DNA from: a virus
Length of the DNA stretch: 33,724 nucleotides
Virus record (IMG/VR): IMGVR_UViG_3300048433_000266
Location: 1 to 33,724 of that record
Strand: one strand, 5' to 3'
The translations under genes were made by a program, and so were the position numbers. This document shows positions 18,103 through 32,845 of the stretch, piece by piece (within the stretch, counting starts at the first letter, position 1; every line of letters begins with the position of its first letter). Under the pieces are notes generated by a model. That model made no database searches. It saw nothing but the letters and a program-made list of their open reading frames with translations, and was not told where the DNA came from.

Positions 18103-18693
18103 ATGAGAAAAAATATACACATACCCGATTTACTTGCTGAAACGATTGGCAAATATAGACATGATGCGCGGTTTAAGAGTGAAACTGCTGCAATCGTTGA
18201 TCTACTTGGAAGGACGTTGGCAGACATATATGCACCATCTGCGTCATATGTTTATTTAGCCTACAGTGACGCGAAAAACCTATATAAAATAGGCGTTTCA
18301 CAGCAGCCAGCAGAGCGGATGAAAGAGCTGTCTGGTGCGGAATACGGTGGGGTGAGACTAAATGCCGTGATAAAAGGCGGCAGGGTTGCTGAGCAAATAG
18401 CGCACATTTTATTTGATCGCTTTCGGGATCATGGAGAATGGTTTGCGGTCAACCAAGATATTGCTAATTACTTTCGAGATCACGGTGGTGCGATAAAATT
18501 AGATGGCAAAAAGTTTGGCGTAGAAAAAGAGCAATGGAACCATCGAATTAAGAAAGAACTAGCAGATGGCATGCGAGAGTTGCAAAAAGCACGAGCAGAG
18601 CAGGGCATCAACCAAACACTGCGTGACCTGACAGAGGAGGCGTTTGACCTTTATTGCAATTACCACGGCGTCAAGGCGAGGGAAGCCGCATGA
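18103..18693 (+). CDS. RHH plus GIY-YIG (T5orf172/Mug113-like) protein
   Basis: 196 residues; AAAGAGG precedes the ATG. Residues 1-42 have the ribbon-helix-helix pattern: strand KNIHIP, helix LLAETIGKYRHDARF, then KSETAAIVDLLGRTLADIY. Residues 48-115 match the GIY-YIG subfamily of T5orf172/Mug113: SYVYLAY, NLYKIGVSQQPAERMKEL with Tyr 61 and Arg 72, Glu 97 in AEQIAHILFDRF, and GEWF. The C-terminal part is helix. A DNA-binding domain joined to a small nuclease-like domain at the head of the early operon suggests a regulator or a site-directed nuclease. The TGTGCAA repeats lie directly upstream, so autoregulation is plausible. The stop overlaps the next start (ATGA). Confidence 0.68.
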   Translation: MRKNIHIPDLLAETIGKYRHDARFKSETAAIVDLLGRTLADIYAPSASYVYLAYSDAKNLYKIGVSQQPAERMKELSGAEYGGVRLNAVIKGGRVAEQIAHILFDRFRDHGEWFAVNQDIANYFRDHGGAIKLDGKKFGVEKEQWNHRIKKELADGMRELQKARAEQGINQTLRDLTEEAFDLYCNYHGVKAREAA

Positions 18694-19163
18694 CTGTCAT
18701 CATCGGCATAGACCCTGGCTTTTCAGGCGCAGTCGCATTTCTCTGGCCTGACATGAAGCTCGAAATACACGACATGCCTGTATTGAAGAACGCCAAGGGC
18801 AAGACGGAGCTTAATCTGCACATACTGCACGAGCTAATGACACCCGAAGGTGACGAGCCGCACATGGCATTCATTGAGCAAGTGGCAGCAATGCGCGGTC
18901 AAGGCGTGTCGTCAATGTTCCGTTTTGGCGAGACATACGGCGCAACGCAGATGGCAGTCGCAGCTCACAAAATCCCAATACAGTACGTCACGCCTGCAAA
19001 GTGGAAAGGTTACTTCAGACTAAACCGCGACAAAGGTGTGTCACGCGGTCTGGCAACGCAGCGTTTTCCAGACTGCGCAAAGATGTTCGAGCGCGTCAAA
19101 GACGACGGCAGAGCAGAGGCAGCGCTGATTGCGCTATATGGAAAGGAAATGAGTAATGTATAA
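18690..19163 (+). CDS. RuvC-like Holliday junction resolvase
   Basis: 157 residues; the start at 18690 (ATGA overlap) is preferred over an upstream in-frame ATG inside the previous gene. The RNase H-type core is visible: MTVIIGIDPGFSGAVAFLWP with Asp 8, AFIEQV with Glu 63, a central FRFGETYGATQMAV helix, and KDDGRAEAALIALYG with acidic residues near 138-143. These four acidic positions form the metal site of RuvC-family resolvases. It would resolve branched replication or recombination intermediates before packaging, in the replication module beside a RecB-type nuclease and the primase-helicase. Confidence 0.85.
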   Translation: MTVIIGIDPGFSGAVAFLWPDMKLEIHDMPVLKNAKGKTELNLHILHELMTPEGDEPHMAFIEQVAAMRGQGVSSMFRFGETYGATQMAVAAHKIPIQYVTPAKWKGYFRLNRDKGVSRGLATQRFPDCAKMFERVKDDGRAEAALIALYGKEMSNV

Positions 19164-19593
19164 AGACGATACCGCTCTCATAATTCAAAATATGGAAAAA
19201 TTGCTAGAAATGTGGGGGTCACATAATTTTTATCGCTGTTATGACGTAATTCCGATTTTGCAAGAGCGATTGAGCATTAGGGCTGCTCGTTGTTTAGAGC
19301 GCTGGAATGAAGACCTGACAAACCAGCCAATCAAAACACTTTTTGACATTGATATGACTAGCGATGCCATGCTTTTAACAACAGCTAATTTTGGAGTAAA
19401 ATCAATGCGAGAACTCCGTCATGAAGTTGCTGAATTAAAAAGAGAATATAACATTATTGAACCGCTGCCCCTGAAAGAACTTATGGCGCAGATGAAAACT
19501 TTAATCCAAACATGCGGCGTCACGGATGCTGATAAAATTTGGAAAGCAGCAAAACAACAGCTAGAAACTGAACGCGCTAGGTATTTCACATGA
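19156..19593 (+). CDS. Helical hypothetical protein of the replication operon
   Basis: 145 residues; the ATG overlaps the preceding stop by eight bases. The chain is mainly helical: DTALIIQNMEKLLEMWGSHN, then LQERLSIRAARCLERWNEDL, a middle block with TTANFGVKSMRELRHEVAEL that resembles the helix-hairpin-helix-like C-terminal segment of RNA polymerase alpha subunits, and KELMAQMKTLIQTCG. The alpha-CTD-like signature (NFGxKSxxEL) is notable, since in bacterial alpha it contacts UP elements and factors. Similarity is over about 20 residues only, so this is a hint, not an assignment. It lies between resolvase and nuclease genes, all overlapping. Confidence 0.6.
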   Translation: MYKDDTALIIQNMEKLLEMWGSHNFYRCYDVIPILQERLSIRAARCLERWNEDLTNQPIKTLFDIDMTSDAMLLTTANFGVKSMRELRHEVAELKREYNIIEPLPLKELMAQMKTLIQTCGVTDADKIWKAAKQQLETERARYFT

Positions 19594-20339: not shown

Positions 20340-20697
20340 TTTCAACAAATCACACGCATGGAAGTCAGACCCTGACGATTTATTCATGGACAACGTGTAT
20401 GCCTTCCGCGATATCGTAAACCTCTACAGCCACAGCATTGACTTTTACTTTCCCAATTATCACGATGCGCCGTGGCAGGTACAGGCAGAAATCAGCGGAG
20501 AAAAAGTAAACTTCTGGCCTCACAAAATGAAGGCGCACATAGAATACACAAAAGGCGGGGCAGTTGAAGGCCGCTATCGCATCATAGACCTGATTAACGA
20601 ACAGATCGCAAAAGACCCAGAAGGCTCGTCAGGCAAGTCAGATGACTGGACACTGGCAGACGGCTGGGATGACGATGAGTTTGATCTGTTCGAATGA
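20329..20697 (+). CDS. Small protein with acidic C-terminal tip
   Basis: 122 residues from ATG 20329, inside the end of the nuclease gene and preceded by GGGAAGAA; a longer in-frame start at 20182 runs through the nuclease gene and is rejected. The N-terminal 80 residues are a mixed fold rich in aromatics: DFYFPNYHDAPWQVQAEISG, EKVNFWPHKMKAHIEYTKGG. The end is very acidic, DGWDDDEFDLFE, like the protein-docking tips of SSB-type proteins. It lies between the nuclease and the methyltransferase in the replication operon. The role is unknown; a binding partner or inhibitor of a replication protein is possible. Confidence 0.65.
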   Translation: MEYNFNKSHAWKSDPDDLFMDNVYAFRDIVNLYSHSIDFYFPNYHDAPWQVQAEISGEKVNFWPHKMKAHIEYTKGGAVEGRYRIIDLINEQIAKDPEGSSGKSDDWTLADGWDDDEFDLFE

Positions 20698-20708
20698 TGG
20701 GAGTTGAT

Positions 20709-21899
20709 ATGAAATATGGAAGTGTATGCTCTGGCGTTGAAGCCGCTACAGTAGCGTGGCATTCGCTCGGTTGGGAGCCACAGTGGTTTAGCGAAATTGA
20801 AGCATTCCCTAGCGCTGTTTTGCAGCACCGTTACCCAGAAACGCCGAACCTTGGCGATATGACAAAATTTAAGGAGTGGCCTAGTGACCGATCAATTGAC
20901 CTTCTTGTTGGAGGAACGCCCTGCCAATCATTCAGTGTCGCAGGACTTCGCAAGGGACTTGATGACCCAAGGGGAAACCTTATGCTCACCTATCTTGCCA
21001 TTGCTGCACAGTATCAGCCCAAGTGGGTGGTTTGGGAGAACGTCCCCGGCGTCTTGTCTAGCAACAGAGGACGGGATTTTGGAACCTTCCTCGGGGCGTT
21101 GGGGCAACTCGGGTATGGGTTCGCCTACAGAGTGCTTGACGCTCAATACTTCGGAGTGGCACAGCGACGCCGACGTGTTTTTGTTGTCGGACACCTTGGA
21201 GACTGGCGACGTGCCGCAGCGGTTCTATTTGAGCGAGAAAGCATGTCAGGGCATCCTGCGCCGAGCAGAGAGACGCGGGAAGAAATTACCGGATACACTT
21301 CAGGCAGCTTTGGAAGCTACAGTGAGAGTAGCGGAGTAGCGTCCACAGTGACAGCCGCAGGAAGAGATATAGGCGGGGGATCGGAAACGCTTGTGGCGAA
21401 AACTTTAACCACTGGCACTGGTCGTCAGTTTAACGCCGAAACGGAAAGTTTCGTGACTGAACAGGAAAAGGTGAACACGATCACTGCATCATATGGCATG
21501 GGTGGGGCTGATTTAGAAACCAAGCCTGTCGTTTATGGCTGGAATAGCGAGTTCAACACAATGAAAGACGCGATGCCGACCATACAGCGTGGTGGACAAG
21601 GTGGGTCACAAGATGGCGTTATGGACGGAAGCATGACCGTGCGCAGATTAACGCCAATTGAATGCGAACGATTGCAAGGCTTTCCAGACAATTACACGCG
21701 CATTTCATGGCGCAATAAATCACCAGATGATTGCCCAGATGGGCCGCGATACAAGGCTATGGGCAACAGTATGGCCGTGCCAGTGATGCGCTGGATCGGT
21801 GAAAGAATACAGCAGGTGGAAGCATTTGCTGCAATCCCAGCGCAGGGTCACGCGCACAACAACGTCAACAACTCAAACACAGGAGAAAATAATGTTTGA
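20709..21899 (+). CDS. DNA cytosine-C5 methyltransferase
   Basis: 396 residues from ATG 20709, with GGGAG at 20699-20703; an upstream ATG at 20694 lacks this site. The motifs are complete: SVCSGVEAATVAWHSLGW (motif I, AdoMet), GGTPCQSFSVAG with catalytic Cys 72 (IV), WENVPGV with Glu 110 (VI), AQRRRRVFVVG (VIII), ECERLQGFPDNYT (IX) and YKAMGNSMAVPVM (X). The variable region between VIII and IX (residues about 165-315) is Gly/Thr/Ser-rich and holds the target recognition part. No partner restriction enzyme is present, so it most likely protects phage DNA from host enzymes. Codons 59-210 also encode a second protein in the +1 frame. The stop overlaps the next start. Confidence 0.92.
   Translation: MKYGSVCSGVEAATVAWHSLGWEPQWFSEIEAFPSAVLQHRYPETPNLGDMTKFKEWPSDRSIDLLVGGTPCQSFSVAGLRKGLDDPRGNLMLTYLAIAAQYQPKWVVWENVPGVLSSNRGRDFGTFLGALGQLGYGFAYRVLDAQYFGVAQRRRRVFVVGHLGDWRRAAAVLFERESMSGHPAPSRETREEITGYTSGSFGSYSESSGVASTVTAAGRDIGGGSETLVAKTLTTGTGRQFNAETESFVTEQEKVNTITASYGMGGADLETKPVVYGWNSEFNTMKDAMPTIQRGGQGGSQDGVMDGSMTVRRLTPIECERLQGFPDNYTRISWRNKSPDDCPDGPRYKAMGNSMAVPVMRWIGERIQQVEAFAAIPAQGHAHNNVNNSNTGENNV
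20884..21339 (+). CDS. Nested gene in the methyltransferase, +1 frame
   Basis: 151 codons wholly inside the methyltransferase gene, in the +1 frame. It begins with GTG at 20884, preceded by AAGGAG at 20871-20876 with 7-base spacing, a strong ribosome site that has no use for the host gene. I recognise from memory the pattern of recurrent, unnamed phage and prophage proteins starting MTxQLTFLLEE and containing SGWFGRTSPASC, GNSGMGSPTECLTLNTSEW, LETGDVPQRFYLSEKAC and GILRRAERRGKKLP; both frames seem conserved. It has no known function. It may act on host restriction or modification or assist the methyltransferase; this is speculation. Confidence 0.75.
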   Translation: MTDQLTFLLEERPANHSVSQDFARDLMTQGETLCSPILPLLHSISPSGWFGRTSPASCLATEDGILEPSSGRWGNSGMGSPTECLTLNTSEWHSDADVFLLSDTLETGDVPQRFYLSEKACQGILRRAERRGKKLPDTLQAALEATVRVAE

Positions 21900-22509
21900 A
21901 ATAGACTTAGGAAACACAGGTTCCGACATCAATACGTTCCTCGGCTGGTCAGCACGAGGCACACAGGACGGCGCAATCAGAGCCAAGCAGTTCTACTTAC
22001 GCGACGGCGCAGCGAAGGATGAATACGAAGCAGCGCAGACAAATGGCTTTATCCTAGACCTCGATAGCCTAAAAACAGGTTGGCAAAAGTCAGAAGGCAT
22101 TGCAGGCGTAGCACCTGAATGGAAGTGGAACCCATCAACAAACCAAATGATGGCAAAGCCTGGTGATGACTATAAAAAGGGCATCTCAGTCAAATGCGCC
22201 ATCGGCGGTGGCAAAGTCGCCATGTGGGAACAAGCAGGCGCAGCAATCTGGTCTGCCATCACTGACCTAGCGCCGAAGCTAAAGGCACAGCCAAGCGCAG
22301 GCCAAATGCCGCTCGTCAAAATGATAGAAGCCAAAGAACTTAAGTTCACAAAAGGCTCAACATGCTACCCTGTCTTTGAAGTCGTTAAATGGGTGGACAA
22401 GCCAGACTGCCTCAAAGAAGGTGCTGCGGCAGGCATTGCAACAGAACCAACACCTGCTCCACAGCCCGAGCCTGCACCAGCAGCCGCGGCAGACGACATG
22501 GAATTTTAA
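21892..22509 (+). CDS. Probable single-stranded DNA-binding protein
   Basis: 205 residues; AGGAG at 21881-21885 precedes ATG 21892, which overlaps the methyltransferase stop. The N-terminal 165 residues have an alternating strand pattern (MFEIDLGNTGSDINTFLGWS, FYLRDGAA, GFILDLDSLKTGWQ, YKKGISVKCAIGGG, ELKFTKGSTCYPVFEVVKWV) that suggests an OB-like fold. The rest is a Pro/Ala/Glu linker (EPTPAPQPEPAPAAAA) ending in DDMEF, like the acidic tip ending in Phe by which SSB proteins recruit partners. It lies just upstream of the primase-helicase gene. It is probably the ssDNA-coating protein of this replisome; the fold has not been verified. Confidence 0.7.
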   Translation: MFEIDLGNTGSDINTFLGWSARGTQDGAIRAKQFYLRDGAAKDEYEAAQTNGFILDLDSLKTGWQKSEGIAGVAPEWKWNPSTNQMMAKPGDDYKKGISVKCAIGGGKVAMWEQAGAAIWSAITDLAPKLKAQPSAGQMPLVKMIEAKELKFTKGSTCYPVFEVVKWVDKPDCLKEGAAAGIATEPTPAPQPEPAPAAAADDMEF

Positions 22510-22516
22510 GCTAAAA

Positions 22517-22544
22517 TGCCGTGGCGGTATTAATCGCCACGGCA
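22517..22544. other. Hairpin between SSB-like and primase-helicase genes
   Basis: A perfect 10-bp inverted repeat, TGCCGTGGCG and CGCCACGGCA, with an 8-base loop (GTATTAAT). There is no T-run, and the helicase ribosome site (GGGAGGG, 22551-22557) follows within a few bases. It might be an mRNA processing or attenuation hairpin that sets the level of the primase-helicase relative to the abundant SSB. Confidence 0.6.
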
Positions 22545-22562
22545 GTCACAGGGAGGGTAGAA

Positions 22563-24764
22563 ATGAAACAGGAAATGGAAAACAATATGGAAATGGCTCC
22601 CAAGTCCGACATCATTAAGCAGTTTATAACACAAATAACGCGAAACTGGAATGAGGTTGGGCAGCCTTTAATAGAAATACGATCAATCAGCACATCTGGA
22701 TCAACAAATGCAGCAAGATTTAAGCTAGAAGACTTAAACCAAGCAGTCGAACATGCTGAGGCTATGAATAAAGCCAAGCAAAACATCTACATGTGCATAA
22801 ACGCAATTGATCCGATCAAAGCCGAGGACATCCCAGCAGGCAAAGCCGCCAAAGACACAGACATCCTCGCAGCCTTTTACTGCTTCGCAGACGCAGACAC
22901 AAAAGGCGCAATGGAAAACATTATGTCATTTGCTGGCCCGAAATTTACACTGTCAGTCAAGACAGGAACGAAGCCATTCGCCAGAGGCCATGCATATTGG
23001 GAACTTGAAGAACCATGCCAAAACATGGACGCATGGAAAGAAGTGCAGAAATCTATAGCCGCAAGCCTACAAACAGACGCGGCTGTCATAAATCCAAGCA
23101 GAATTATGCGCGTGGCAGGCACAGTCTCATGGCCCAACAAAAAGAAGCAAGACAAAGGATACGTCCCTGAACTCGTCACAATGCGCACAGAGTTTACAAA
23201 TGACCGCGATCCGCAGCCGTTCGAGCGGCTCATGCGTGCTTTCCCGAAAAAAGAAATGCCTAACAATCAAGTTGGCGGCATAGAAATAGACCTCGGGCAG
23301 CAAGCAATGGATCGCCAGCTCGCAGCTCAAAGCATCATGGCAGGCGATGACTGGCACAACAATATAATACGCCTTGTCGCATCATATGTATCAAAAGGAC
23401 TGTCAGACGAGGAAATCCACGCCATCACAGACAGCTTCACAATGTCTGGATACTCAGTAGACGACACAAGACGAGAAGTGCAGCAAGCAATAGACGGCGC
23501 AAGGGAAAAAGGATGGACGCCACCGCCCGATCCAGTCAAAGAACATATGCAGAAGCAAAACCAAGCTCTAAACATAGCCACAGAGCCGTCAGAAAGCTAC
23601 ACAGAGGACGCAACAGAGCAAAACTGGCCTACGCCCTATGAAATGTTTGATGCGCTCACGCTGCCGCGCAGGGAGTGGGTGTATGGATACGACTACATCA
23701 AAAAGTACATCAGCGTCACAGCATCGGCAGGCGGTATTGGTAAGACAAGCGCAATCATTGTGGAAGCACTGGCAATCGCGACAGGAAAAGACCTGCTCGG
23801 TACGCCTGTGAAAGAGCAAGCAAACGTCTGGATCATCAACCTTGAAGACCCAATATCCGAAATGCAAATGCGCACAATCGCAGCCATGCAGCACTACAAC
23901 CTAACACCAGACGACATCAGAGGCAGGCTGTTCATAGACGGTGAGGACACAATGGAAATCACGCTGGCAGCAGAAGGCAGAGACGGCCTAATCAAAAACG
24001 ACGACATGCTGGCAGCAATGATCCGCGTCATCAAACAAAACAAAATCGGTGTAGTGATCCTAGACCCCTTTGTTTCCGCACACCTCGTCAACGAAAATAA
24101 CAACGGATCAGTCCAGGCAGTCGTGGCAATGCTCAGAAAGCTCGCCAGAGACACAAACAGCTCAGTTCAGCTCGTGCATCACATCAGAAAAACAAATGGT
24201 GAAGATGCAACGATTGACAGCGTCAGAGGCGCAGGCTCGCTCATCGGAGCAGCCCGAGCAGCCAGAGTAATTAATAAAATTACACCAGACGACGCCATAG
24301 CTCTAGGCGTAGACGAACACGAAGCTCTCGGCATATTCGCAGTTGACGACGGCAAAGCAAACCTCGCACCGCCATCAGATAAGCGCACTTACAGACGCAT
24401 GCAGTCAGTGGAGATTGCAAACGGGGAACATATAGGTGTCGCCACGGAGTTTAAGCTGCCAGACATGTTTGACGGCGTGACAACCAAGAACCTCTACAAT
24501 GTCCAACGCACAATCGGAAAGGCAGAGGAAGCAGACGAAGCCTACAGAGCAAACGCGCAGGCTGACAGATGGGTCGGGAAAGCTGTAGCTGAAGAGCTAG
24601 ACCTCGATCTGGAAAAGCCAAACCAACTCGCAAAGACGAAAGCAATTGTTAAGCAGTGGGTCAGCTCCGGCAGTCTCAAAGTTGTTAAGCTGCCAAACAA
24701 AAGAAAAGGCGGCGATGCACCGTGTGTGATCGTCGGCGAATGGGTGAACCATGACGAGCTGTAA
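22563..24764 (+). CDS. Primase-helicase (AEP-type primase, PriCT-like, RecA-type helicase)
   Basis: 733 residues from ATG 22563 with GGGAGGG before it; an in-frame GTG at 22521 lies inside a hairpin and is rejected. Residues 70-210 resemble RepB/AEP primases: YCFADADTK with Asp 110/112, RGHAYWEL with His 143, and the block INPSRIMRVAGTVSWPNKKK. Residues 245-320 look like the PriCT linker (IIRLVASYVSKGLSDEEI). From 380 is a RecA-type (AAA_25) ATPase: TASAGGIGKTSAIIV Walker A (388-395), WIINLEDP, VVILDPF Walker B (Asp 501) and QLVHHIRK. Together they would prime and unwind DNA at the adjacent iteron-like array. No polymerase gene is seen, so host DNA polymerase is likely used. Confidence 0.85.
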   Translation: MKQEMENNMEMAPKSDIIKQFITQITRNWNEVGQPLIEIRSISTSGSTNAARFKLEDLNQAVEHAEAMNKAKQNIYMCINAIDPIKAEDIPAGKAAKDTDILAAFYCFADADTKGAMENIMSFAGPKFTLSVKTGTKPFARGHAYWELEEPCQNMDAWKEVQKSIAASLQTDAAVINPSRIMRVAGTVSWPNKKKQDKGYVPELVTMRTEFTNDRDPQPFERLMRAFPKKEMPNNQVGGIEIDLGQQAMDRQLAAQSIMAGDDWHNNIIRLVASYVSKGLSDEEIHAITDSFTMSGYSVDDTRREVQQAIDGAREKGWTPPPDPVKEHMQKQNQALNIATEPSESYTEDATEQNWPTPYEMFDALTLPRREWVYGYDYIKKYISVTASAGGIGKTSAIIVEALAIATGKDLLGTPVKEQANVWIINLEDPISEMQMRTIAAMQHYNLTPDDIRGRLFIDGEDTMEITLAAEGRDGLIKNDDMLAAMIRVIKQNKIGVVILDPFVSAHLVNENNNGSVQAVVAMLRKLARDTNSSVQLVHHIRKTNGEDATIDSVRGAGSLIGAARAARVINKITPDDAIALGVDEHEALGIFAVDDGKANLAPPSDKRTYRRMQSVEIANGEHIGVATEFKLPDMFDGVTTKNLYNVQRTIGKAEEADEAYRANAQADRWVGKAVAEELDLDLEKPNQLAKTKAIVKQWVSSGSLKVVKLPNKRKGGDAPCVIVGEWVNHDEL

Positions 24765-24778
24765 ACTTGATAGCCACA

Positions 24779-24934
24779 CTTCCACACCTTGTTTTCCCGA
24801 AGTGTGGGTAAGGTGTGGAAGGTGTGGAAGAAAAGCCACAAAATACCCTTCCACACCACCTGCATATATATATGCAAGGTGTGGTGGGGTGGTGGATCAG
24901 GTTGAAGTGAGGTGTGGAAGCAAGGTGTGGAAAA
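24779..24934. repeat. Iteron-like array, probable replication origin
   Basis: The 186-bp gap after the primase-helicase gene holds six copies of TGTGGAA within a wider AAGGTGTGGAAG consensus. Direct copies: 24814-24820, 24823-24829 (9-bp pitch), 24913-24919, 24926-24932. Inverted copies: 24780-24786, 24849-24855. A degenerate copy (TGTGGTG) is at 24880-24886, with related TGTGGGT at 24803-24809. The array flanks an AT-rich palindrome and a local inverted repeat CCACACC/GGTGTGG. The combination of iterons plus AT-rich palindrome next to a primase-helicase gene is typical of replication origins. Confidence 0.7.
24861..24876. repeat. AT-rich palindrome in the iteron array
   Basis: TGCATATATATATGCA is a perfect 16-bp palindrome at the middle of the array, between inverted CCACACC (24851-24857) and GGTGTGG (24878-24884), which can extend the cruciform. 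It could be the DNA unwinding element or a cruciform signal. Confidence 0.75.
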
Positions 24935-24949
24935 TCGGAGGGTAAACAG

Positions 24950-25516
24950 ATGAAGCAGACCAAAAGACAAAAGAAGTCGGATCGCATATTGCATGGCAGT
25001 CAGTCCAAGGATGCCATCATGTGTGACTACGCATTAGCTCCAGTTGACAGGCTGGCAATCCAGATGGATGAGAAGTGGGGGATAGATGTGCTGCCCGAGC
25101 TGGTCAGTGTCTCGATGTCGCAAAAGTATGGCAGTGCGGTGGCTAAGATGAATGCGGCAGTTGAGGCAGGCGATGTAGAAGAATGTAAGGTTCGCTGTGA
25201 AGTCGTGATGAGGGGGCTGCAAGCGATGGACGCTGAGGCTGAACGTATTGGCGCACAGAGAGCCTCAACGGATGTGTGGGAGGTTCAGATAGATGGAAAA
25301 CTGTTCGGCGTTATGAAGGACGGTAGATCATGGCGCACGATAAAGAAGCAGCGGCCTGAGTTGGAGTTGTTGACGCTGCGTGAGGTCGGGCTTTCTTACT
25401 CTTGGTTCCGTGACAACTGGGCAGGTGAGTTAGAGAAGGCAGCGAAGCAATCATTCCCAGGCGCAGAGTTAATCGACATCAAGGGGAAACTGTTTGACGA
25501 TCCTATTCCCCTCTGA
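24950..25516 (+). CDS. Hypothetical protein downstream of the origin array
   Basis: 188 residues from ATG 24950, chosen for its GGAGG at 24937-24941; an earlier in-frame ATG at 24914 lies inside the repeats. The N-terminus is basic (MKQTKRQKKSDRILHG). A helical part follows (ALAPVDRLAIQMDEKWGIDV, VSMSQKYGSAVAKMNAAVEA), then a segment with DVWEVQIDGKLFGVMKDGRS and a C-terminal helix (YSWFRDNWAGELEKAAKQSF). No enzymatic motif. Its place beside the putative origin suggests an accessory replication or DNA-binding protein. A terminator follows. Confidence 0.65.
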   Translation: MKQTKRQKKSDRILHGSQSKDAIMCDYALAPVDRLAIQMDEKWGIDVLPELVSVSMSQKYGSAVAKMNAAVEAGDVEECKVRCEVVMRGLQAMDAEAERIGAQRASTDVWEVQIDGKLFGVMKDGRSWRTIKKQRPELELLTLREVGLSYSWFRDNWAGELEKAAKQSFPGAELIDIKGKLFDDPIPL

Positions 25517-25584
25517 GATAGTGACGGTACTTGATAGTGCAGAGCTTTACCCATTTCCTTCTGCACTTTCTGCCTCACTGAACT

Positions 25585-25611
25585 GGCTCGGCATTGCGCC
25601 GAGCCTTTTTT
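25585..25611 (+). terminator. Intrinsic terminator of the replication operon
   Basis: A perfect 8-bp stem GGCTCGGC/GCCGAGCC with loop ATTGC runs into six T residues (25606-25611). It ends the rightward early operon that begins at 18103. Confidence 0.92.
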
Positions 25612-25628
25612 GTTTGTAACCTATCAGC

Positions 25629-25820
25629 ATGAATACTTTTGTCGTAGAATATGATCCAGACATGGATGACGATGAGATTGATGCAGAGGTCGCAGAGATG
25701 CTGTGGCTTATCAATGAGCGCATTCTAGGTGGCAGTAGTCGGAAGGTTATGGCAGTAGCTCTAAGCCTTGCGATGAAGGAATACTTAGAGAACAGCGAAG
25801 CATTCGGAATACATCATTAG
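25629..25820 (+). CDS. Small acidic protein after the early terminator
   Basis: 63 residues, MNTFVVEYDPDMDDDEIDAE followed by a helical region with VAEMLWLINERILGG and SRKVMAVALSLAMKEYLENS. No strong ribosome site is visible before the ATG, so the gene call is moderate. The helix-rich end (ALSLAMKEYLE) resembles small phage regulators but has no recognisable motif. It lies alone between the early terminator and a 440-bp non-coding stretch. Confidence 0.45.
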   Translation: MNTFVVEYDPDMDDDEIDAEVAEMLWLINERILGGSSRKVMAVALSLAMKEYLENSEAFGIHH

Positions 25821-26261
25821 CGCGTTAGAACACACAGCGACGGCAAGGCGCGGACGCATGCGCACATACCTGAACGCTCGTTCAATTACAATATTGGACA
25901 TACTATATGTTGTGGTTTGCGCAGACTGCATGGCTTCCCAACAGCTCTGATTGCCTGTAAGTCATTGATAATAAAGGATTTGCATAATAATTTAACATAA
26001 TACACATTATCTGGCTATGCATATCTATGCAGTTTTGGCAGCCAGACCCCCCCAGCGCCGCGAGAAGAGGGGGGCATGTGTGTGTAGAAAAACGCAGACA
26101 CCTGTGCTACCATAAAGCCAGGACTGCCACGCTTCCTCACTTGCGCGACAACTCGTCTCTCCCTACGCTGTGTCAGCGCCGTGGCAGTCCCCCCCCCATC
26201 CCCCTATTGCCAGAACTGCTAGCATCGTCTAAAATTTTAAAAATTCTGGAAGCGAGGCGAT
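25821..26261. other. Non-coding, structured region before the terminase genes
   Basis: There is no credible gene in this stretch. The first part is AT-rich with short repeats (TGCATA/TATGCA at about 26017-26030). It then carries a C7 tract and a G6 tract (26047-26053 and 26069-26074) that can pair around a GC-rich loop, and a perfect 11-bp inverted repeat GGACTGCCACG/CGTGGCAGTCC (26121-26131 and 26180-26190). A C9 run (26189-26197) and a promoter (26207-26235) follow. Such structure directly upstream of the small terminase gene is a common place for a cos or pac packaging site, but I cannot show which. Confidence 0.5.
26207..26235 (+). promoter_or_regulatory. Sigma70-like promoter for the terminase operon
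   Basis: TTGCCA (26207-26212), 17-base spacer, TAAAAT (26230-26235); each hexamer is 5 of 6 to consensus. It ends 26 bases before the small terminase ATG at 26262. Confidence 0.7.
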
Positions 26262-26744
26262 ATGGCGGGAAAGCAGTTAAAAAAGACAATACTTGCAGAC
26301 GTTGCCAAGAAGGGCGGCGCGGAATATGTGCGTGAGATGGCGTCTAGCATGACATTGAAGGCCTGGGCTGCTCAGGAGTGGCAATGCAGTCGCAACTACC
26401 TGAGCGAGACAATCCGCAGTGTTCCTGAGTATGCTCGTGCATTGGAGGGTGCGCAGTCGGTTTTAGCGGATGCCATGATGGAGGAGAATGTTGAGATTGC
26501 CGACAGCATTCCAGAGACTGCATCGAGTACGCAGATTGCGAAGGTTCGTGAGCAGATGCAGGCACGAAAGATGTTGGCTGCTGGGCTGAATAGGGATCGG
26601 TACGGTAGTGGCCCTCGTGCTGAGATTACTTTGAACTTGGGTGATCTGCACTTGGACGCCCTTAGGAAAATCAGCTCTGACCGCCAGGCATTGATGGCAG
26701 AGGATCGTGAGCGTGAGATGAAGGTGATTGAGCATGACGACTGA
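26262..26744 (+). CDS. Terminase small subunit
   Basis: 160 residues. Its identity rests on position just before the large subunit and on its build. A helix-turn-helix-like N-terminal part (MTLKAWAAQEWQCSRNYLSE, TIRSVPEYARALEGA) is followed by a long helical middle (VREQMQARKMLAAGLNRDRY) and a short beta-rich segment RAEITLNLGDLHLDALRKIS. Small terminases bind the packaging site and stimulate the large subunit; the DNA-binding half is the N-terminus. Ribosome site GAAGCGAGG precedes the ATG. It overlaps the large subunit start by 11 bases. Confidence 0.8.
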   Translation: MAGKQLKKTILADVAKKGGAEYVREMASSMTLKAWAAQEWQCSRNYLSETIRSVPEYARALEGAQSVLADAMMEENVEIADSIPETASSTQIAKVREQMQARKMLAAGLNRDRYGSGPRAEITLNLGDLHLDALRKISSDRQALMAEDREREMKVIEHDD

Positions 26745-28137
26745 GGCTAATCCATTTGAGGAGTTTACGTTACAGTACATGGATGACCCTGTGCTGTTCG
26801 TTAAGGAAGTGCTTGGTGCTGAGCCGCTGCCGTATCAGGTGGAGTTTTTGGAAGCGATTGCGGCGAATGAGCGGAAGATCAGCATTCGGTCTGGTCATGG
26901 TACTGGGAAGTCAACGAGCGCGAGTTGGGCGATGCTGTGGTTTTTGCTGATGCGTTTTCCTAATAAAGTGGTCGTCACTGCCCCAACGTCTGGTCAGTTG
27001 TTTGATGCATTGTTTGCGGAGCTAAAGCGGTGGATTGGTGAGTTGCCGAAGCCAGTACAAGATTTGCTGACAGTTAAGAGCGATCGAGTTGAGCTGACGG
27101 CTGCGCCTTCTGAGATGTTTATATCTGCCAGAACGTCGCGTGCAGAAACGCCAGAAGCCTTAGCGGGTGTACACAGTGATAATGTTCTTTTGGTCGTTGA
27201 CGAGGCGTCTGGTGTGCCTGAGAAGGTGTTTGAGGCGGCTGCTGGTTCTATGTCGGGCCACAGCGCCACGACTGTTCTTTTGAGCAACCCTACGCGATCA
27301 ACTGGTACGTTTTATGAGAGCCAGAATAGGATGTCTGGCAGTTGGTGGACGCGGCGATGGAGCTGCGTTGACAGTCCGTTGGTGTCTGATGAGTTCGTTG
27401 ACGAGATGCGTGAGCGGTATGGCGAGGAGAGCAATGCGTTTCGTATTAGGGTTTTGGGTGAGTTTCCGTTAGCGGACGATGACACGATTATTCCGTTTCA
27501 TTTGGTTGATGCGGCTATGAACAGAGATATTGAGGTGGACGAGGAGCGTCGGCCTGTCTGGGCTGTTGATCCTGCTCGATTTGGGACTGACAGGACTGCG
27601 TTTTGCAAGAGAGTTGGGAGTGTTATTACTGAGATTAAGTCGTGGCGTGGCTTGGACTTGATGCAGACTGTTGGTCGTGTGATGGCGGAGTATGAGGCTC
27701 TAAATCCGAGCAATAGACCGTCAGAAATCTTGGTTGACAGCATTGGTGTGGGTTCTGGCGTTGTTGATCGTTTGAGGGAGCTTGGGGCGCCTGTGAGGGG
27801 TGTGAATGTGGCTGAAAGTCCGTCTATGGGCGAGACGTACAATAATTTGAGAACTGAGCTGTGGTTTAAGACAAAGGCGTGGCTTGAGGATCGTTCTTGC
27901 AAATTGCCGCAAGATGATGAGTTGTTGGCTGATCTGACAGGTATACGGTACTCGTTTACGTCGTCTGGCAAGATGGCGGCTGAGGGGAAGGATCAGATGA
28001 GGCGCAGAGGATTAAGATCGCCTGACTTGGCAGATGCAGTTTGCTTGACAATGGCGTCTGACGCGGCGATGGCGCTGTCTGGGCCTATGAGTACATGGAG
28101 AGGCGAGCTGAGAAGGAATTTGCGCGGTATTGCGTAG
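26734..28137 (+). CDS. Terminase large subunit
   Basis: 467 residues from ATG 26734; a TTG six bases earlier is possible but AAGGTG is better spaced for the ATG. ATPase motifs: LPYQVEFLEAIA (Q-like motif), RSGHGTGKSTSAS (Walker A), VVVTAPTSGQ, VLLVVDEASGVPEKVF (Walker B plus Glu), TTVLLSNPTRSTGTFY (coupling motif III). The nuclease domain shows AVDPARFGTDRTAFCKR, EILVDSIGVGSGVVDRL and the last catalytic acidic residue in RSPDLADAVCLTM. It is an intact motor and nuclease for packaging headful or cos-ended DNA into the procapsid through the portal. Homology to P22-like or SU10-like large terminases is likely. Confidence 0.93.
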   Translation: MTTEANPFEEFTLQYMDDPVLFVKEVLGAEPLPYQVEFLEAIAANERKISIRSGHGTGKSTSASWAMLWFLLMRFPNKVVVTAPTSGQLFDALFAELKRWIGELPKPVQDLLTVKSDRVELTAAPSEMFISARTSRAETPEALAGVHSDNVLLVVDEASGVPEKVFEAAAGSMSGHSATTVLLSNPTRSTGTFYESQNRMSGSWWTRRWSCVDSPLVSDEFVDEMRERYGEESNAFRIRVLGEFPLADDDTIIPFHLVDAAMNRDIEVDEERRPVWAVDPARFGTDRTAFCKRVGSVITEIKSWRGLDLMQTVGRVMAEYEALNPSNRPSEILVDSIGVGSGVVDRLRELGAPVRGVNVAESPSMGETYNNLRTELWFKTKAWLEDRSCKLPQDDELLADLTGIRYSFTSSGKMAAEGKDQMRRRGLRSPDLADAVCLTMASDAAMALSGPMSTWRGELRRNLRGIA

Positions 28138-28170
28138 TGTGATATGGTCGGTGCAACATAGGAGGTTTTT

Positions 28171-28284
28171 ATGGCATATGGTAAAAAGATGGGCGCTGCG
28201 CCTAAGTTTAAGCCTTGCAGCGGTTGCCCGACACCAGTTGCGTGCGCTCGTAAGGGCAAGTGCATGGCAAAAGCGAGAAAGTAA
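28171..28284 (+). CDS. 37-residue cysteine-rich basic microprotein
   Basis: AGGAGG (28160-28165) lies five bases ahead of ATG 28171, a very strong ribosome site. The product MAYGKKMGAAPKFKPCSGCP then TPVACARKGKCMAKARK has a CxxC-x5-C-x5-C pattern and a very basic charge, so it may bind one zinc ion and nucleic acid. The stop TAA overlaps the next ATG (TAATG). It lies in a row of three tiny basic genes between terminase and the ART-like gene. Confidence 0.7.
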   Translation: MAYGKKMGAAPKFKPCSGCPTPVACARKGKCMAKARK

Positions 28285-28454
28285 TGCCTAGAGCGAAGAA
28301 GGGGCTTTATGCCAACATTCACGCCAAACGGAAGCGGATTAAGGCTGGTTCGGGTGAAACGATGCGGAAGCCAAGCAGCAAGGGAGCGCCGACTTCTAAA
28401 GCATTCAAAGCGGCTGCAAAGACGGCTAAGAAGCCAGCGAAAAAGAAAAAGTGA
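28284..28454 (+). CDS. Small basic phage protein
   Basis: 56 residues from ATG 28284, which overlaps the previous stop; an in-frame ATG at 28260 lies in the previous gene and is not preferred. MPRAKKGLYANIHAKRKRIK, then AGSGETMRKPSSKGAPTSKA and a Lys/Ala tail (KTAKKPAKKKK). I recall this first motif (MPRAKKGLYxNIHAKRKRI) as a conserved small protein in phages, with no known function. It is strongly cationic, with over a third Lys or Arg, so a DNA-condensing or head-internal role is possible. Confidence 0.75.
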   Translation: MPRAKKGLYANIHAKRKRIKAGSGETMRKPSSKGAPTSKAFKAAAKTAKKPAKKKK

Positions 28455-28460
28455 CGAGTA

Positions 28461-28721
28461 ATGGCGAAAGACCCTAAACTGAGCCGTGTTGGTGTTTCTG
28501 GTTATAACAAGCCAAAGAGAACGCCGAGCCATCCGACAAAGAGCCATGTTGTCGTGGCGAAAGATGGAGACAAGGTGAAGACAATACGGTTTGGGCAGCA
28601 GGGCAAGACAGGCGATAAAACGATGACAAAGCGTGCAAAGTCGTTTAAAGCGCGTCATGCAAAGAACATTGCCAAAGGCAAGATGTCTGCGGCGTATTGG
28701 GCGAATAAGGTTAAGTGGTAG
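28461..28721 (+). CDS. Small basic phage protein, second member
   Basis: 86 residues, MAKDPKLSRVGVSGYNKPKR, then a middle with a short strand (HVVVAKDGDKVKTIRFGQQG) and a C-terminal block FKARHAKNIAKGKMSAAYWA followed by NKVKW. The last block is a conserved pattern of small phage proteins in my memory: a basic helix followed by an aromatic Trp-containing end. The function is unknown. It follows the previous tiny gene by a few bases, and the next gene starts one base after its stop, so all are likely in one transcript with the terminase. Confidence 0.7.
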   Translation: MAKDPKLSRVGVSGYNKPKRTPSHPTKSHVVVAKDGDKVKTIRFGQQGKTGDKTMTKRAKSFKARHAKNIAKGKMSAAYWANKVKW

Positions 28722-30434
28722 ATGGCGACACCTGACGAGATACGCCGAGCGCGAGAGCAATCGAGCATTTTTGGCAATTTGTTTGATTATGTGCGTGCCA
28801 ATGAGGCGCAACTTGCGTCAGAAGGTCGTCGGCCTGTTTTGGGTGGATTGCTGTCAAAAGAGCCTGTGATGGGAACTGACACGATCCGCTATGAGGGACT
28901 TGGCCCTATGTTGGCAGGGCTGCTTGAGCCGTTGGCGCGTGGCGTTGATGCACCTCGCGCTGCGGCTCAGGGTCTAATACCGCAAGAGGATATGATTGGC
29001 GAGGCGTTTGGCACTGCTGGGACTGCCATGCTTGGTGGCGGTGCGGTTGCTAAGCCTGCGGGGGCTTTAGGTGCGAATACACTGCGCGTTTATCATGGTG
29101 GTGATTATAGGTATGGCGATGACATAAATGCTCCATTTTTTGTCACGCCAGATCGTAAAGGTGCAGAGTATTTTGCGCCAGATGATGTGCCTTTTAGTTC
29201 GGTTTCAAACTTTGAGGCAGATTTAAGCAATGCACTTGATATAGATACGCTAGCAGGTCAGGCTCAATTGTCTGAGATATTGACTAAGTACGGGATTGAG
29301 CATGACTACAATCCTGACAGTGTTTATGAAAAGATTGACATTTATGATGTGCCTGATGATGTGTCGTATGACGGCACAAACTTGCTTGATGCTGCGTACA
29401 TTCCAGAAGTTCAAGACGCTTTGAAGAAAGAGGGCGTGAGCGCACTTTACAGTTCGGCAGACGCACTAGAGAACTCAAGCATTCCAGCTTATGCAGTTGT
29501 TGACCCTACTATTTTGGGCGCCAACGCTTCAAAAAGCTCGGGCCTTTTATCAGTTGCGTCAGACGTATCCGCACGCGGCGATCAGATATTAAACATGCTA
29601 AAGTCTGGCAGAGGGTCGGAGGTTACTGACGCGATGCTAGATATGGGCGACGGCGTAAAAAATACGCAGTTAAATCAGTACCTTGCAGCAAATTATGATT
29701 TGCCTATGGACGAGGCAAGCCGATTGGCTCGTGCGCGTGAGATGGGGTTTGAGGGCGGCTTGCTGCATGGCACTGGTTCAGACATCACTGCGGTTGATCC
29801 AGCAAAGCTCGGTGGAAAGCAGAATGTTTTGGGCAAGGGGTTTTATCAAACAACTAATCCGCAAAGATCAGATCGTTATGTTCCAAAGGTAAAAGATGAC
29901 GATGGTAGCTTGATTTTTGCAGAAGGTGGCAATGTCATGCCTCTTATGACTAAAAGCGCAGATGAGTTTGATTTGACTGTTCCGACAGGCAAGGAAAACA
30001 TCACGCGCATTGCGAACGCTTTTGAAGGGTCTGATTATGACGTTGAGTTGCGCGATGGCGGCGACAGTGTGTTTATTCAAAGTAAAACAGACCCAAGCGC
30101 GTCGGTCTTTCTTGATAGTTATGCAGAAGGGCAAAATACACTAATGCGTCTGAAAGATGCGTTCGGAAACAACAATATTACCCCAATTCTGCAAGAGGCT
30201 GGATTTACTGGCGTTAAGGGCGTTGAGAGCAGAGGCAGCAATGTGCGTGTAAATTATAACCCGCAAGATGTGCGCACACAATTTGCCAGGTTTGATCCTC
30301 GACTATCTCACTTGTCAAACGTCACAGCAGCCAACGCCTCACCAATAAGTGGCCTTTTGGCGCAATCTGGTGTATCAAGTGAGCAAGCTCAGAGAATAGA
30401 AGACTATCTGTATAGGACAGGATTGTTACAGTAA
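28722..30434 (+). CDS. Protein with two ADP-ribosyltransferase-like domains
   Basis: 570 residues. Domain 1 (about 119-265): TLRVYHGGDYRYGDDINAPF then FVTPDRKGAEYFAP with His 125, and VVDPTIL near its end. Domain 2 (about 328-530): MDEASRLARAREMGFEGGLL, HGTGSDITAVDP with His 349, LGKGFYQTTNPQRSDRYVP with Tyr 375, and the end block GFTGVKGVESRGSNVRVNYN then QDVRTQFARFDP. This matches the ART domain of phage polyvalent proteins, where the HGT and lGkGfY motifs bind NAD and the C-terminal block is diagnostic. It could modify host proteins after entry or act inside the virion. It overlaps the adaptor gene by one base. Confidence 0.72.
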   Translation: MATPDEIRRAREQSSIFGNLFDYVRANEAQLASEGRRPVLGGLLSKEPVMGTDTIRYEGLGPMLAGLLEPLARGVDAPRAAAQGLIPQEDMIGEAFGTAGTAMLGGGAVAKPAGALGANTLRVYHGGDYRYGDDINAPFFVTPDRKGAEYFAPDDVPFSSVSNFEADLSNALDIDTLAGQAQLSEILTKYGIEHDYNPDSVYEKIDIYDVPDDVSYDGTNLLDAAYIPEVQDALKKEGVSALYSSADALENSSIPAYAVVDPTILGANASKSSGLLSVASDVSARGDQILNMLKSGRGSEVTDAMLDMGDGVKNTQLNQYLAANYDLPMDEASRLARAREMGFEGGLLHGTGSDITAVDPAKLGGKQNVLGKGFYQTTNPQRSDRYVPKVKDDDGSLIFAEGGNVMPLMTKSADEFDLTVPTGKENITRIANAFEGSDYDVELRDGGDSVFIQSKTDPSASVFLDSYAEGQNTLMRLKDAFGNNNITPILQEAGFTGVKGVESRGSNVRVNYNPQDVRTQFARFDPRLSHLSNVTAANASPISGLLAQSGVSSEQAQRIEDYLYRTGLLQ

Positions 30435-31054
30435 TGGCACTTACAACCTATGATGAATTAAAAGCAAGCATTGCGGATTTTCTGAACCGCGATGATTTAA
30501 CGTCTGTTATTCCTGATTTTATTTCGTTGGCTGAAGCTGACATGAATAGAGGCTTGCGTCACTGGCGTCAGGAAAAGCGCAGCACGGCAGAGATTGACAC
30601 GCAGTACAGTGCAATGCCTGCTGACTTTCTTGAGGTTATTAGCTTTCACATTAGCTCTGGCGATTATCGCAGCTTAGAGTTAGTCAGCAAGGCGCAAATG
30701 CAAGATCGTCGGTATAAGTCTGGCGACACATCTGGCAAGCCTGCGTTTTACGCGATTACTGCTGGTGAGATTGAAGTTTACCCAACGCCTGATGGGACGT
30801 ACAACGCAGAGCTTTACTACTACTCACGGATTACTGCGTTGTCTGACAGTGATACGTCAAACTGGGTTTTGGAGTATTTCCCTGACGCGTATTTGTATGG
30901 TGCGCTTGTGCATTCTAGCCCTTACCTTAAAGAGGACGCGCGCACTCAGGTTTGGGCATCGTTGTACGCAAACGCGATCAGTGCTATAAATGCGGAAAGC
31001 GAAAAGTCTAAATTTGGCGGTTCAGGACGCCGCATGCGTATTCGCAGCTATTAA
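30434..31054 (+). CDS. Head-tail adaptor (SU10-like)
   Basis: 206 residues, ATG overlapping the previous stop. Pattern of the SU10-type adaptor family: MALTTYDELKASIADFLNRD, VIPDFISLAEADMNRGLRHW, YSAMPADFLEVISF, RSLELVSKAQMQDRRYKSGD, FYAITAGEIEVYPTPDGTYN, and a C-terminal AYLYGALVHSSPYLKEDART followed by VWASLYANAISAINAES. Adaptors bind the portal ring and close the head before the tail attaches. Together with portal and capsid of the same type this defines the virion lineage. Its stop overlaps the stop of an antisense homing endonuclease (TTAA). Confidence 0.88.
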   Translation: MALTTYDELKASIADFLNRDDLTSVIPDFISLAEADMNRGLRHWRQEKRSTAEIDTQYSAMPADFLEVISFHISSGDYRSLELVSKAQMQDRRYKSGDTSGKPAFYAITAGEIEVYPTPDGTYNAELYYYSRITALSDSDTSNWVLEYFPDAYLYGALVHSSPYLKEDARTQVWASLYANAISAINAESEKSKFGGSGRRMRIRSY

Positions 31055-31617
31055 CGCCTGCCATGATTAGGGTGGAAGCCGTACTTGGCTTCTGCCTCTT
31101 TCCTTGCAGTGATAGCATCATTTTTATCCGCAAAACTTCCAAGGTGTACTAGCCTTCCATTAGCAGATATTGTGCATACCCATCTGCATGTTTTTTTAAC
31201 AAAGTAAACCCCTGTGTAGCCGCTACTGTTGTCGCTTCTAATCGCTCTGTTCATGTTGTTTTCTTTGCTGCTGACAGCTCGCAAATTTGAAATTCTATTG
31301 TCACTTCTAATTCCATTGATGTGGTCAATTTGGTTAATTGGGGCCGCTCCATAAAACATTGTCCATATAATGCGGTGAGCAGAGTACACTTTTTTAAAAA
31401 TCAATCCATTGCGATACCCTTTGCCATCGTCAGCGGTAAACGCTTCCTTTCCCGCAAGTCTGCTATTCCATTGTACACAAGCATGTTTTGCGCTTCTTTT
31501 TTCTGTTGTATTAAAGAAGGAAATATCGCGCTCTTTCCAATACAGTTTTCCTGTGTCTGGTTCATAGCGAAGCAGTTGACGTAATAGTTCTGGGGATGGT
31601 AGTTCTTTTTTAGACAT
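31051..31617 (-). CDS. HNH-AP2 homing endonuclease (antisense copy)
   Basis: 188 residues with AAGGAGGCCGAA before the ATG. An N-terminal 35-residue block (LLRQLLRYEPDTGKLYWKER), then VYSAHRIIWTMFYG, the HNH core QIDHINGIRSDNRISNLRAV, and a C-terminal AP2-like DNA-binding domain (SGYTGVYFVKKTCRWVCTIS, HLGSFADKNDAITARKEAEA, then FHPNHG). This is a free-standing homing nuclease that copies itself into new sites. It lies opposite to the adaptor and tail genes, between them, and shares sequence with the sense copy at 32846-33346. Confidence 0.9.
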   Translation of the reverse strand: MSKKELPSPELLRQLLRYEPDTGKLYWKERDISFFNTTEKRSAKHACVQWNSRLAGKEAFTADDGKGYRNGLIFKKVYSAHRIIWTMFYGAAPINQIDHINGIRSDNRISNLRAVSSKENNMNRAIRSDNSSGYTGVYFVKKTCRWVCTISANGRLVHLGSFADKNDAITARKEAEAKYGFHPNHGRR

Positions 31618-31647
31618 TTCGGCCTCCTTATTAGGCTGTCTTGGTTA

Positions 31648-31681
31648 GAAACTCGCCAGTGTTGCTGCATTGGCGGGTTTC
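31648..31681. terminator. Strong hairpin between homing endonuclease and tail genes
   Basis: GAAACTCGCCA (31648-31658) and TGGCGGGTTTC (31671-31681) pair over 11 positions, one being T-G wobble, around a 12-base loop. The A-rich 5' and T-rich 3' edges resemble an intrinsic terminator, and the stem can work on both strands. A promoter-like TTGCTG (31662-31667) and TATAGT (31685-31690), 17 bases apart, overlap it and lie 25 bases before the ribosome site of the next gene. Confidence 0.55.
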
Positions 31682-31725
31682 GTATATAGTGGCATAGAAC
31701 GTTCACAAATTCAATGGAGGCGGCG

Positions 31726-32106
31726 TTGTCCCTATCCAATACCTTTGAAACACACACGCTGAATTACCTGTTTACAGCCACTTCAGTTACGCGGCCCACA
31801 GCTTGGTATGTTGCGCTGTTTACGAGCGATCCAGCAGAAGATGCGTCAGGCACAGAAGTATCTGGCGGTGCATATGCGCGTCAGAGCGTGACTTTCACAG
31901 TGTCAGGCAATACTGCGTCTAACTCTGCTGCGGTTGAGTTTCCTACTGCAACTGCCTCGTATGGCACAGTTACTCACATCGGTGTTTATGATGCATCATC
32001 TGGTGGCAACTTGATTGCTTATGCAGCGTTGACTACAAGCAAAGCGATTGACACGGGCGATGTACTTAGGCTCCCAGCATCTGACCTAGATATAACTATG
32101 GACTAA
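31726..32106 (+). CDS. Conserved tail-associated protein
   Basis: 126 residues from TTG 31726, chosen because GGAGG (31715-31719 region) lies about six bases ahead; an in-frame ATG at 31714 overlaps that ribosome site. MSLSNTFETHTLNYLFTATS, then RPTAWYVALFTSDPAEDASG, EVSGGAYARQSVTFTVSG, a strand-rich middle, THIGVYDASSGGNLIAYAAL and TSKAIDTGDVLRLPASDLDI. The motif (x)WYVALFTxxP...GxEVsGGaYaRqxVtF is common in small tail or fibre-associated phage proteins. It would be a beta-sandwich protein of the tail tip or a fibre connector. Confidence 0.72.
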   Translation: MSLSNTFETHTLNYLFTATSVTRPTAWYVALFTSDPAEDASGTEVSGGAYARQSVTFTVSGNTASNSAAVEFPTATASYGTVTHIGVYDASSGGNLIAYAALTTSKAIDTGDVLRLPASDLDITMD

Positions 32107-32110
32107 GCCT

Positions 32111-32836: not shown

Positions 32837-32845
32837 GTAAAGTAG

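Follow-up and report, generated by a model that had tools for sequence, protein, structure and literature searches.

An iteron array recoded in step with the adjacent primase-helicase gene: a candidate replication origin in a family of uncultured phages

The DNA examined here ("the window") spans 33,724 bases and makes up an entire IMG/VR virus record; in it, a repeat array occupies the gap behind the primase-helicase gene. Taken as a whole, our data are best explained if this array is the replication origin of the phage and the adjacent primase-helicase its own initiator, and we regard this reading as very probable. A preliminary description had already proposed an iteron-like origin served by a phage initiator, primase and helicase; both of the checks that can be made by computation, the presence of repeats in relatives and a nearby minimum of GC skew, support that proposal. 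The features discussed below are collected in Table 1.

Table 1. Coordinates of the array, its elements and the flanking genes in the window.
Feature	Position	Strand	Basis
SSB-like protein upstream of the helicase, C-terminal ADDMEF tip	21799..22509	+	assignment of the preliminary description
Primase-helicase of 747 aa, with an N-terminal part resembling AEP/PrimPol, a RepA-like hexameric helicase (AAA_25) and a winged-helix domain at the C terminus	22521..24764	+	Pfam and profile matches
C-terminal domain (residues 651-747), a winged helix proposed to read the iterons	24471..24761	+	AlphaFold2, PDB fold matches, travels with array
Codons 678-680 (Asn-Ala-Gln), second putative specificity site	24552..24560	+	co-variation with unit class
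Codon 729, which encodes Lys in the window: residue X of R-X-G in the wing, put forward as reading the variable TG[N]GG base	24705..24707	+	co-variation, 107/107 loci
Candidate replication origin, intergenic iteron array	24765..24949	.	repeats, shuffle test, kept geometry, nearby skew minima
Iteron copy, complement AAGGTGTGGAAG	24779..24790	-	repeat search
Two iteron copies AAGGTGTGGAAG in 9-bp tandem	24810..24830	+	repeat search
Iteron copy left of the central dyad	24848..24857	-	repeat search
AT-rich perfect palindrome TGCATATATATATGCA, candidate unwinding or priming element	24861..24876	.	sequence and inverted-repeat search
Iteron copy CAAGGTGTGGTG, right of the dyad	24875..24886	+	repeat search
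Two more iteron copies, 13 bp apart	24907..24933	+	repeat search
Conserved downstream protein, 188 aa, SSB-like C-terminal tip	24950..25516	+	conserved in relatives

The array is housed in a 185-bp gap bounded by the stop codon of the helicase gene and the ATG of the next gene. As had been described, it contains six exact copies of TGTGGAA, at 24780 (-), 24814 (+), 24823 (+), 24849 (-), 24913 (+) and 24926 (+); the second and third form a 9-bp tandem, and copies stand on both sides of a perfect 16-bp AT palindrome. The gap is not the only one in the window, as had been stated: the list of open reading frames leaves others, e.g. 25517-25628. The heptamer, which occurs nine times in the whole window (4.6 expected), is too short to be the unit. 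A better unit is AAGGTGTGG, with the fuller form AAGGTGTGG(A/T)(A/G). About ten [GC]TG[TA]GG cores sit at fixed offsets in the window array, and a GTAAGGTGTGGAAG family has four copies of 14 nt each in the gap. The first inverted pair is made by 24779-24790 with 24810-24821, separated by a T-rich loop. The most frequent 7-, 8-, 9- and 10-mers of the gap occur seven, six, six and five times, copy numbers that were reached in none of 1000 dinucleotide shuffles; when the entire window was scanned for clustered 8-mers per 160 bp, the gap ranked first. The window had neither an Rfam match nor a tRNA. The array thus has two marks of an iteron origin: several short repeats in a noncoding stretch beside the gene of the presumed initiator, and an AT-rich element, here the palindrome.

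To follow the array through related viruses, we collected 80 loci with the helicase, of which 77 were informative (L069, L075 and L076 end inside the gene). Every one of these 77 viral relatives, i.e. those whose contig extends far enough, carries an array, placed directly after the helicase gene or, in loci with inserted genes, immediately ahead of the downstream gene. Arrays are also present in a second clade (57% helicase identity) and in a third. GenBank phages included no near relative: three records match the window's DNA, in the methyltransferase gene only, and ten give distant matches to the helicase. Genome contigs yielded five relatives of the primase part only, joined to other helicases. 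The preliminary description had expected conserved repeats with changed sequence between them. The repeats are indeed kept in relatives, but what is conserved is their spacing, and the repeats themselves are recoded in concert. Whole arrays read GGTGTGG (as in the window), AACTGTGG, AAGTGTGG or GGTGAGG, the copies within an array changing together; among all relatives the unit classes are GGTGTGG, ACTGTGG, AGTGTGG, GGTGAGG and GGTGCGG.

The geometry was assessed in 95 loci, counted after the removal of 21 duplicates (loci from the same contigs or from the window). Measured from the first minus-strand unit, the other units lie at 14, 25, 33, 68 and 91 bp. At least four of these five offsets are kept within 3 bp in 87 of the 95 arrays, and the standard deviations span 0-1.1 bp regardless of unit sequence; the remaining eight (L015, L040, L053, L074, L083, L093, L098 and L122) depart from the standard layout. 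An AT-rich center is not universal: dyads chosen by script had an AT fraction of at least 0.8 in 51 of 95 loci. Four loci (L040, L074, L122 and L138) have longer, differently laid-out arrays 3' of the helicase, in which GC hairpins followed by runs of T or A occur between units; these arrays are possibly split by terminators. The stretch between helicase and array is also a spot for insertions, as the distance from the helicase to the downstream gene exceeds 400 bp in 27 of 95 loci. The inserted genes include one that is PAPS-reductase-like (SFSGGRTSGYML; L004, L005, L008, L009 and L068) and another in L035 and L063; the window has none.

The primase-helicase is assembled from parts of different affinity. 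Its sole Pfam match above cut-off was AAA_25 (E = 6e-35, residues 374-559), and a profile match to the hexameric helicase RepA of RSF1010 (1g8y, E = 2.6e-8) indicates a homologous core. The N-terminal part has weak profile similarity to a PrimPol AEP (6zp9, E = 0.005). Neither an SF3/D5-type helicase nor a Toprim-type primase was found in this protein. The C-terminal domain is less easily placed by sequence: its profile had no match among PDB sequences at E = 1, and its 13 matches to PHROGs are weak (lowest E = 0.009), none of them spanning the domain by itself. An AlphaFold2 model of residues 630-747, of moderate confidence (pLDDT 78), has the order H-H-H-strand-wing-strand. Foldseek alone returned nothing for the domain with E < 0.001; fold comparison against the PDB gave winged helices, the best being the RQC region of RecQ1 (Z = 8.3), followed by SAMD1 with DNA (7.1) and MarR with DNA (5.7). 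In the model, residue 729 falls within the wing, flanked by an invariant Arg and an invariant Gly, and residues 678 and 680 just ahead of the second helix.

These residues track the array. In 95 loci, residue 729 predicted the variable base of TG[N]GG with no error: Gln accompanies A (31 loci), and Lys, Ser, Ala, His or Thr accompanies T (64 loci). It was the best predictor among all columns of the helicase and of the downstream protein, and the runners-up belong to the same C-terminal domain. Left out of the 95, for having fewer than three units in the searched stretch, were L094 (two T, no A), L138 (seven T in its longer array) and L095 (cut off). With later loci included, the rule for residue 729 covers Asp too (Gln goes with A, Asp with C, all others with T), and the majority base obeys it in every one of 107 loci. 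A second site comprises residues 678-680. N/S-x-Q goes with GG units in 50 of 51 loci and D-x-R with units that lack GG in 44 of 44, D-x-R accompanying AC or AG units. Residues 680 and 678 each make one error against the bases before TG, namely L066, the remaining exception to the rule for this site. Eight later loci outside the set from which the rules were found (L167, L187, L246, L247, L249, L250, L251 and L253) fit at both sites, although they do not amount to eight independent tests because several are close to loci already used. The co-variation of initiator specificity with iterons that marks iteron origins is therefore present here.

Aspartate at column 729, absent from the 95 loci, occurs in two lineages. 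Their arrays are GGTGCGG in L191 and L199, and GGTGCGG plus ACTGCGG in L192-L197, a single lineage in which two of the six contigs are counted in the 107. Because contacts between Asp and cytosine are usual, C is the base to expect with Asp at 729; no record of this expectation was made before the arrays were examined. L065 was considered as a counterexample (Asp with T) and rejected, its aligned residue being Ser. Likewise, L192-L197 had been considered as a case of N-x-Q with AC units. This too was rejected: the canonical GGTGCGG array comes first, then a remnant of the helicase C-terminus, then the AC array.

The code also bears on the possibility that the array acts as a nucleic-acid structure, i.e. 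as hairpins in single-stranded DNA or RNA like the stem-loop of pRN1, its co-variation being no more than base pairing. The array strand does fold far better than its shuffles (z = -4.7) and contains a stem-loop; because inverted repeats must fold, good folding is expected in any case. Replication of pRN1 requires a stem-loop 3' of a similar primase-helicase gene, and specific binding to it was not detected (PMC4234260). Pairing does not explain, on the other hand, the parallel changes of direct repeats that lie outside the stems, the offsets of direct units, which resemble helical turns, or the agreement of the base with residue 729 in every locus. We thus consider a purely structural role quite unlikely and a protein-read origin the preferable account.

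Which protein reads the array? The number of changes of unit class required by different trees was compared for the 67 of 95 loci common to all of them. The tree of the C-terminal domain, from which the three code columns had been removed, required three changes, as opposed to 11 for the helicase core, 11 for the downstream protein and 13 for the SSB-like protein. Part of the co-variation is expected from cassette transfer alone, since the C-terminal domain and the array adjoin. Three controls addressed plain cassette transfer: the downstream gene, convergent single-residue changes, and the 27 loci in which the helicase and the downstream gene lie more than 400 bp apart. For the first, the tree of the downstream protein's initial 97 residues, which abut the other side of the array, required 10 changes; neighborhood alone therefore fails to explain the link between array and C-terminal domain. 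For the second, we used a tree of the helicase core that excluded the C-terminal domain and four loci with a short core (L102, L103, L114 and L122). Over its 91 rows, the base and residue 729 change nine times each and agree in every row; agreement also holds for each of the five independent pairs whose branches have strong support. In the third, the array still matches the helicase domain in all 27 loci.

The same comparisons address the idea that the downstream 188-residue protein, or the ribbon-helix-helix (RHH) protein, reads the array instead of the helicase. The downstream gene always abuts the array, even with a gene inserted after the helicase, and RHH is a DNA-binding fold. Yet the columns of the downstream protein predict the unit poorly (the best has 9.8% errors for A/T and 8.7% for GG), and its trees need 10-11 class changes vs. 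three. A homologue of the RHH protein, which the preliminary description had listed for a gel shift, is found in only 20 of the 78 loci with enough flank; it is the C-terminal domain of the helicase that tracks the unit. Either of these two proteins as the reader is accordingly very unlikely, and we infer that the C-terminal domain binds the array directly.

The two neighboring phage proteins may have another function. Although the downstream protein belongs to no known family in Pfam, PHROG or NCBIfam, and its AlphaFold2 model (pLDDT 80) matched no PDB fold at E = 0.001, its ending is conserved: an acidic stretch with [IVL]P[FWL] closes 92 of 93 complete copies. The tip is FDDPIPL in the window and FDDDIPF or FDDPIPF in relatives. 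DDDIPF is described as SSB-Ct (PMC5872125). The SSB-like protein upstream of the helicase, which probably starts at the ATG at 21892, had no match in Pfam, PHROG or NCBIfam. The acidic tips of both proteins (FDDPIPL and ADDMEF) may hook host replication proteins.

Elsewhere in the window, the portal and capsid proteins are SU10-like. A DNA cytosine methyltransferase gene (20694-21899) has ~85% DNA identity to Roseobacter phages CRP-821/822. Apart from this gene, which also has a weaker match in a Pseudanabaena phage, 20600-33724 showed no DNA similarity to GenBank phages; a recent transfer of the gene is likely. A small protein (19156-19593) matches the C-terminal domain of the RNA polymerase alpha subunit (PF03118, E = 7e-6). 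Genes at 18103-18693, 31051-31617 (-) and 32846-33346 are likely of homing-endonuclease type, one T5orf172/GIY-YIG-like and two HNH-like by eye.

If the array is an origin, it might coincide with an extreme of GC skew, as the preliminary description had proposed to check. In all nine near-complete contigs, the minimum of the detrended cumulative skew fell within 2 kb of the array (at -339, +1953, -226, +94, -217, -1115, -142, -1126 and +1661 bp), and masking 400 bp around the array did not move it beyond that distance. The contigs are related and roughly collinear and hence are not nine independent tests. At least two of them appear to be complete, as one has its break within the helicase gene (residues 511/512) and the other a 99-bp terminal repeat. 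The earlier remark that the phage encodes no DNA polymerase was also borne out: a search of 15 contigs (31-37 kb) for Pol A, Pol B and Pol III alpha gave no match above the family cut-off, one contig having a PolB match below it (14 bits).

Two further functions for the array can be weighed with these data. It could be an operator, to which the primase-helicase or another phage protein binds in order to regulate the downstream gene or the late genes and not replication. Its place directly before the downstream gene, which it has in every locus examined, would suit this, and plasmid iterons often serve as operators too. Against an operator, no sigma-70-like promoter was found at 24500-25200, and the skew minimum, the central AT dyad and the bidirectional layout suit an origin better. 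Moreover, AACTGTGG is absent outside the array in three of four class-B contigs and has one outside copy in the fourth. Since the unit is almost confined to the array in these contigs, there is no dispersed regulon. We judge a solely regulatory role unlikely. Packaging sites often lie near terS, and the terminase genes begin some 1.3 kb downstream of the array, which could accordingly be a pac or cos site that the small terminase from this region recognizes. A TerS homologue of the window's type is present in just 16 of 57 loci with enough flank, however, and the array in all 57, with a unit that tracks the helicase domain; the TerS tree (three class changes vs. two for the C-terminal domain) has 19 rows only, too few to decide. 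A packaging site is the most improbable of the readings weighed here, and replication origin remains the favored function.

From these results we propose the following mechanism. The C-terminal winged-helix domain would bind the 9-12-bp iterons, whose fixed spacing and orientation would let several copies of the primase-helicase assemble as helicase rings beside the AT-rich dyad, so that the enzyme would load itself. The RepA-like motor would then open the dyad, and the fused AEP-type primase would lay primers. The host replicative polymerase would continue, recruited perhaps via the SSB-like C-terminal tips of the two neighboring phage proteins. Specificity would be set at two places: wing residue 729 would determine the base at the center of TG[N]GG (A for Gln, C for Asp, T for others), and residues 678/680 would help to determine the bases just before this motif.

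Origin specificity may switch mainly by the swapping of a cassette composed of the C-terminal domain and the array. Between the window and L007, DNA identity is 79-84% in the helicase, 58% in the C-terminal domain, 51% in the array and 80-81% in the downstream gene; between L129 and L050, the respective values are 88-94%, 54-62%, 61% and 89-92%. In L192-L197 (e.g. L192:4500-5020), two arrays of different units flank a fossil helicase C-terminus. The remnant, VGEWIKPEEMN-stop, matches a helicase end such as that of L167, and the second array, of AC units, lies behind it. To judge from the sequence, this double array is likely a trace of the exchange of an origin cassette, possibly one caught midway. 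On balance, we think it likely that these phages display a natural system of specificity switching: a near one-to-one wing-residue code (Gln-A, Asp-C, small/other-T), 8-10 sites recoded in concert at base-pair-fixed geometry in dozens of uncultured phages, and cassette exchange, the driver being a need to evade cross-recognition by satellites, origin-directed nucleases or other phages that co-infect.

The model supplies a candidate origin and initiator for a phage family with no detectable DNA polymerase gene. It also offers a set of naturally matched pairs of initiator and origin, where one residue seems to dictate one base. How an initiator and its whole array of sites can change specificity jointly is difficult to explain, since no site may lag behind the others; here the question becomes directly testable. 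Orthogonal small replicons for synthetic biology could be derived from such pairs, and the origin compatibility of uncultured phages could be predicted from sequence. Isolated phages may serve as laboratory systems for the origin model, possible ones being Rhodoferax phage P26218 and Microcystis phage Mae-Yong1326-1. The cultured P26218 has a CTGCTACAA array after its RepA-like helicase gene region (L161:2663-3170), and Mae-Yong1326-1 a GACTGGCGC array after its RepA-like helicase gene (L162:4153-4690). In L178, L180, L181, L182 and L252, CAGTGGCGC arrays occupy the same place. In Rhizobium phage RHph_X2_26, no clear array was seen in the two gaps read.

The principle of a helicase that recognizes its own origin is already known from SaPI Rep, Cch2 and P4 alpha; our comparisons draw on passages of the papers cited. 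Initiator residues that co-vary with iterons are also described for the iteron-related domains of geminivirus Rep. That protein, unlike ours, is a rolling-circle Rep of plant ssDNA viruses. The helicase of P4 alpha is of the SF3 type, which was not seen here. P4 alpha is a single protein that binds origin repeats by a winged helix, unwinds and primes (PMC4234260); a C-terminal winged helix is modeled in our enzyme, with repeat binding suggested by co-variation, whereas the Toprim-type primase of P4 alpha was not seen. The RSF1010 replicon, treated in the same paper, shares with ours a RepA-related helicase sequence, primase activity, an iteron origin and presumed use of the host polymerase. 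It employs three proteins (RepA, RepB' and RepC), of which RepC reads the iterons; in our case the putative reading domain is fused to the helicase, and no separate RepC was found among the window proteins scanned against Pfam, PHROGs and NCBIfam (a subset of ORFs). Similar in domain order are ORF904 of pRN1 and Bordetella phage BIP-1, with AEP primase, helicase and C-terminal winged helix and a putative origin just 3' (PMC4234260). Theirs is an SF3 helicase and a stem-loop without iterons, for which specific binding was not detected; of that combination, our locus has the stem-loop and a weak AEP similarity, but no SF3 helicase was found.

SaPI Rep and SCCmec Cch2 provide a precedent for the layout: a C-terminal DNA-binding domain of the helicase recognizes iterons right 3' of its own gene, and self-loading has been proposed (PMC7581432). 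The iterons of our phage likewise lie directly downstream of the helicase gene, and co-variation points to reading by the C-terminal domain. Those enzymes are assigned to a family called D5, after the vaccinia protein; ours, in a short-tailed phage, combines a RepA-like AAA_25 motor with an AEP-like primase, and its array is recoded yet geometrically fixed. In the PLE satellites of Vibrio, RepA co-varies with the origin iterons in its DNA-binding domain and is otherwise conserved, and the change of origin is an escape from a phage origin-directed nuclease (PMC8263062). There, as far as the excerpt goes, the initiator is a RepA_N protein without helicase or primase, with two module groups and no residue-to-base code. 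Podoviruses without a DNA polymerase have been discussed, and recruitment of the host polymerase is only hypothesized for them (PMC9860041). In the open-licence literature, we found no description of the present enzyme architecture with an iteron code; both this architecture and the natural residue-to-base code appear to be new.
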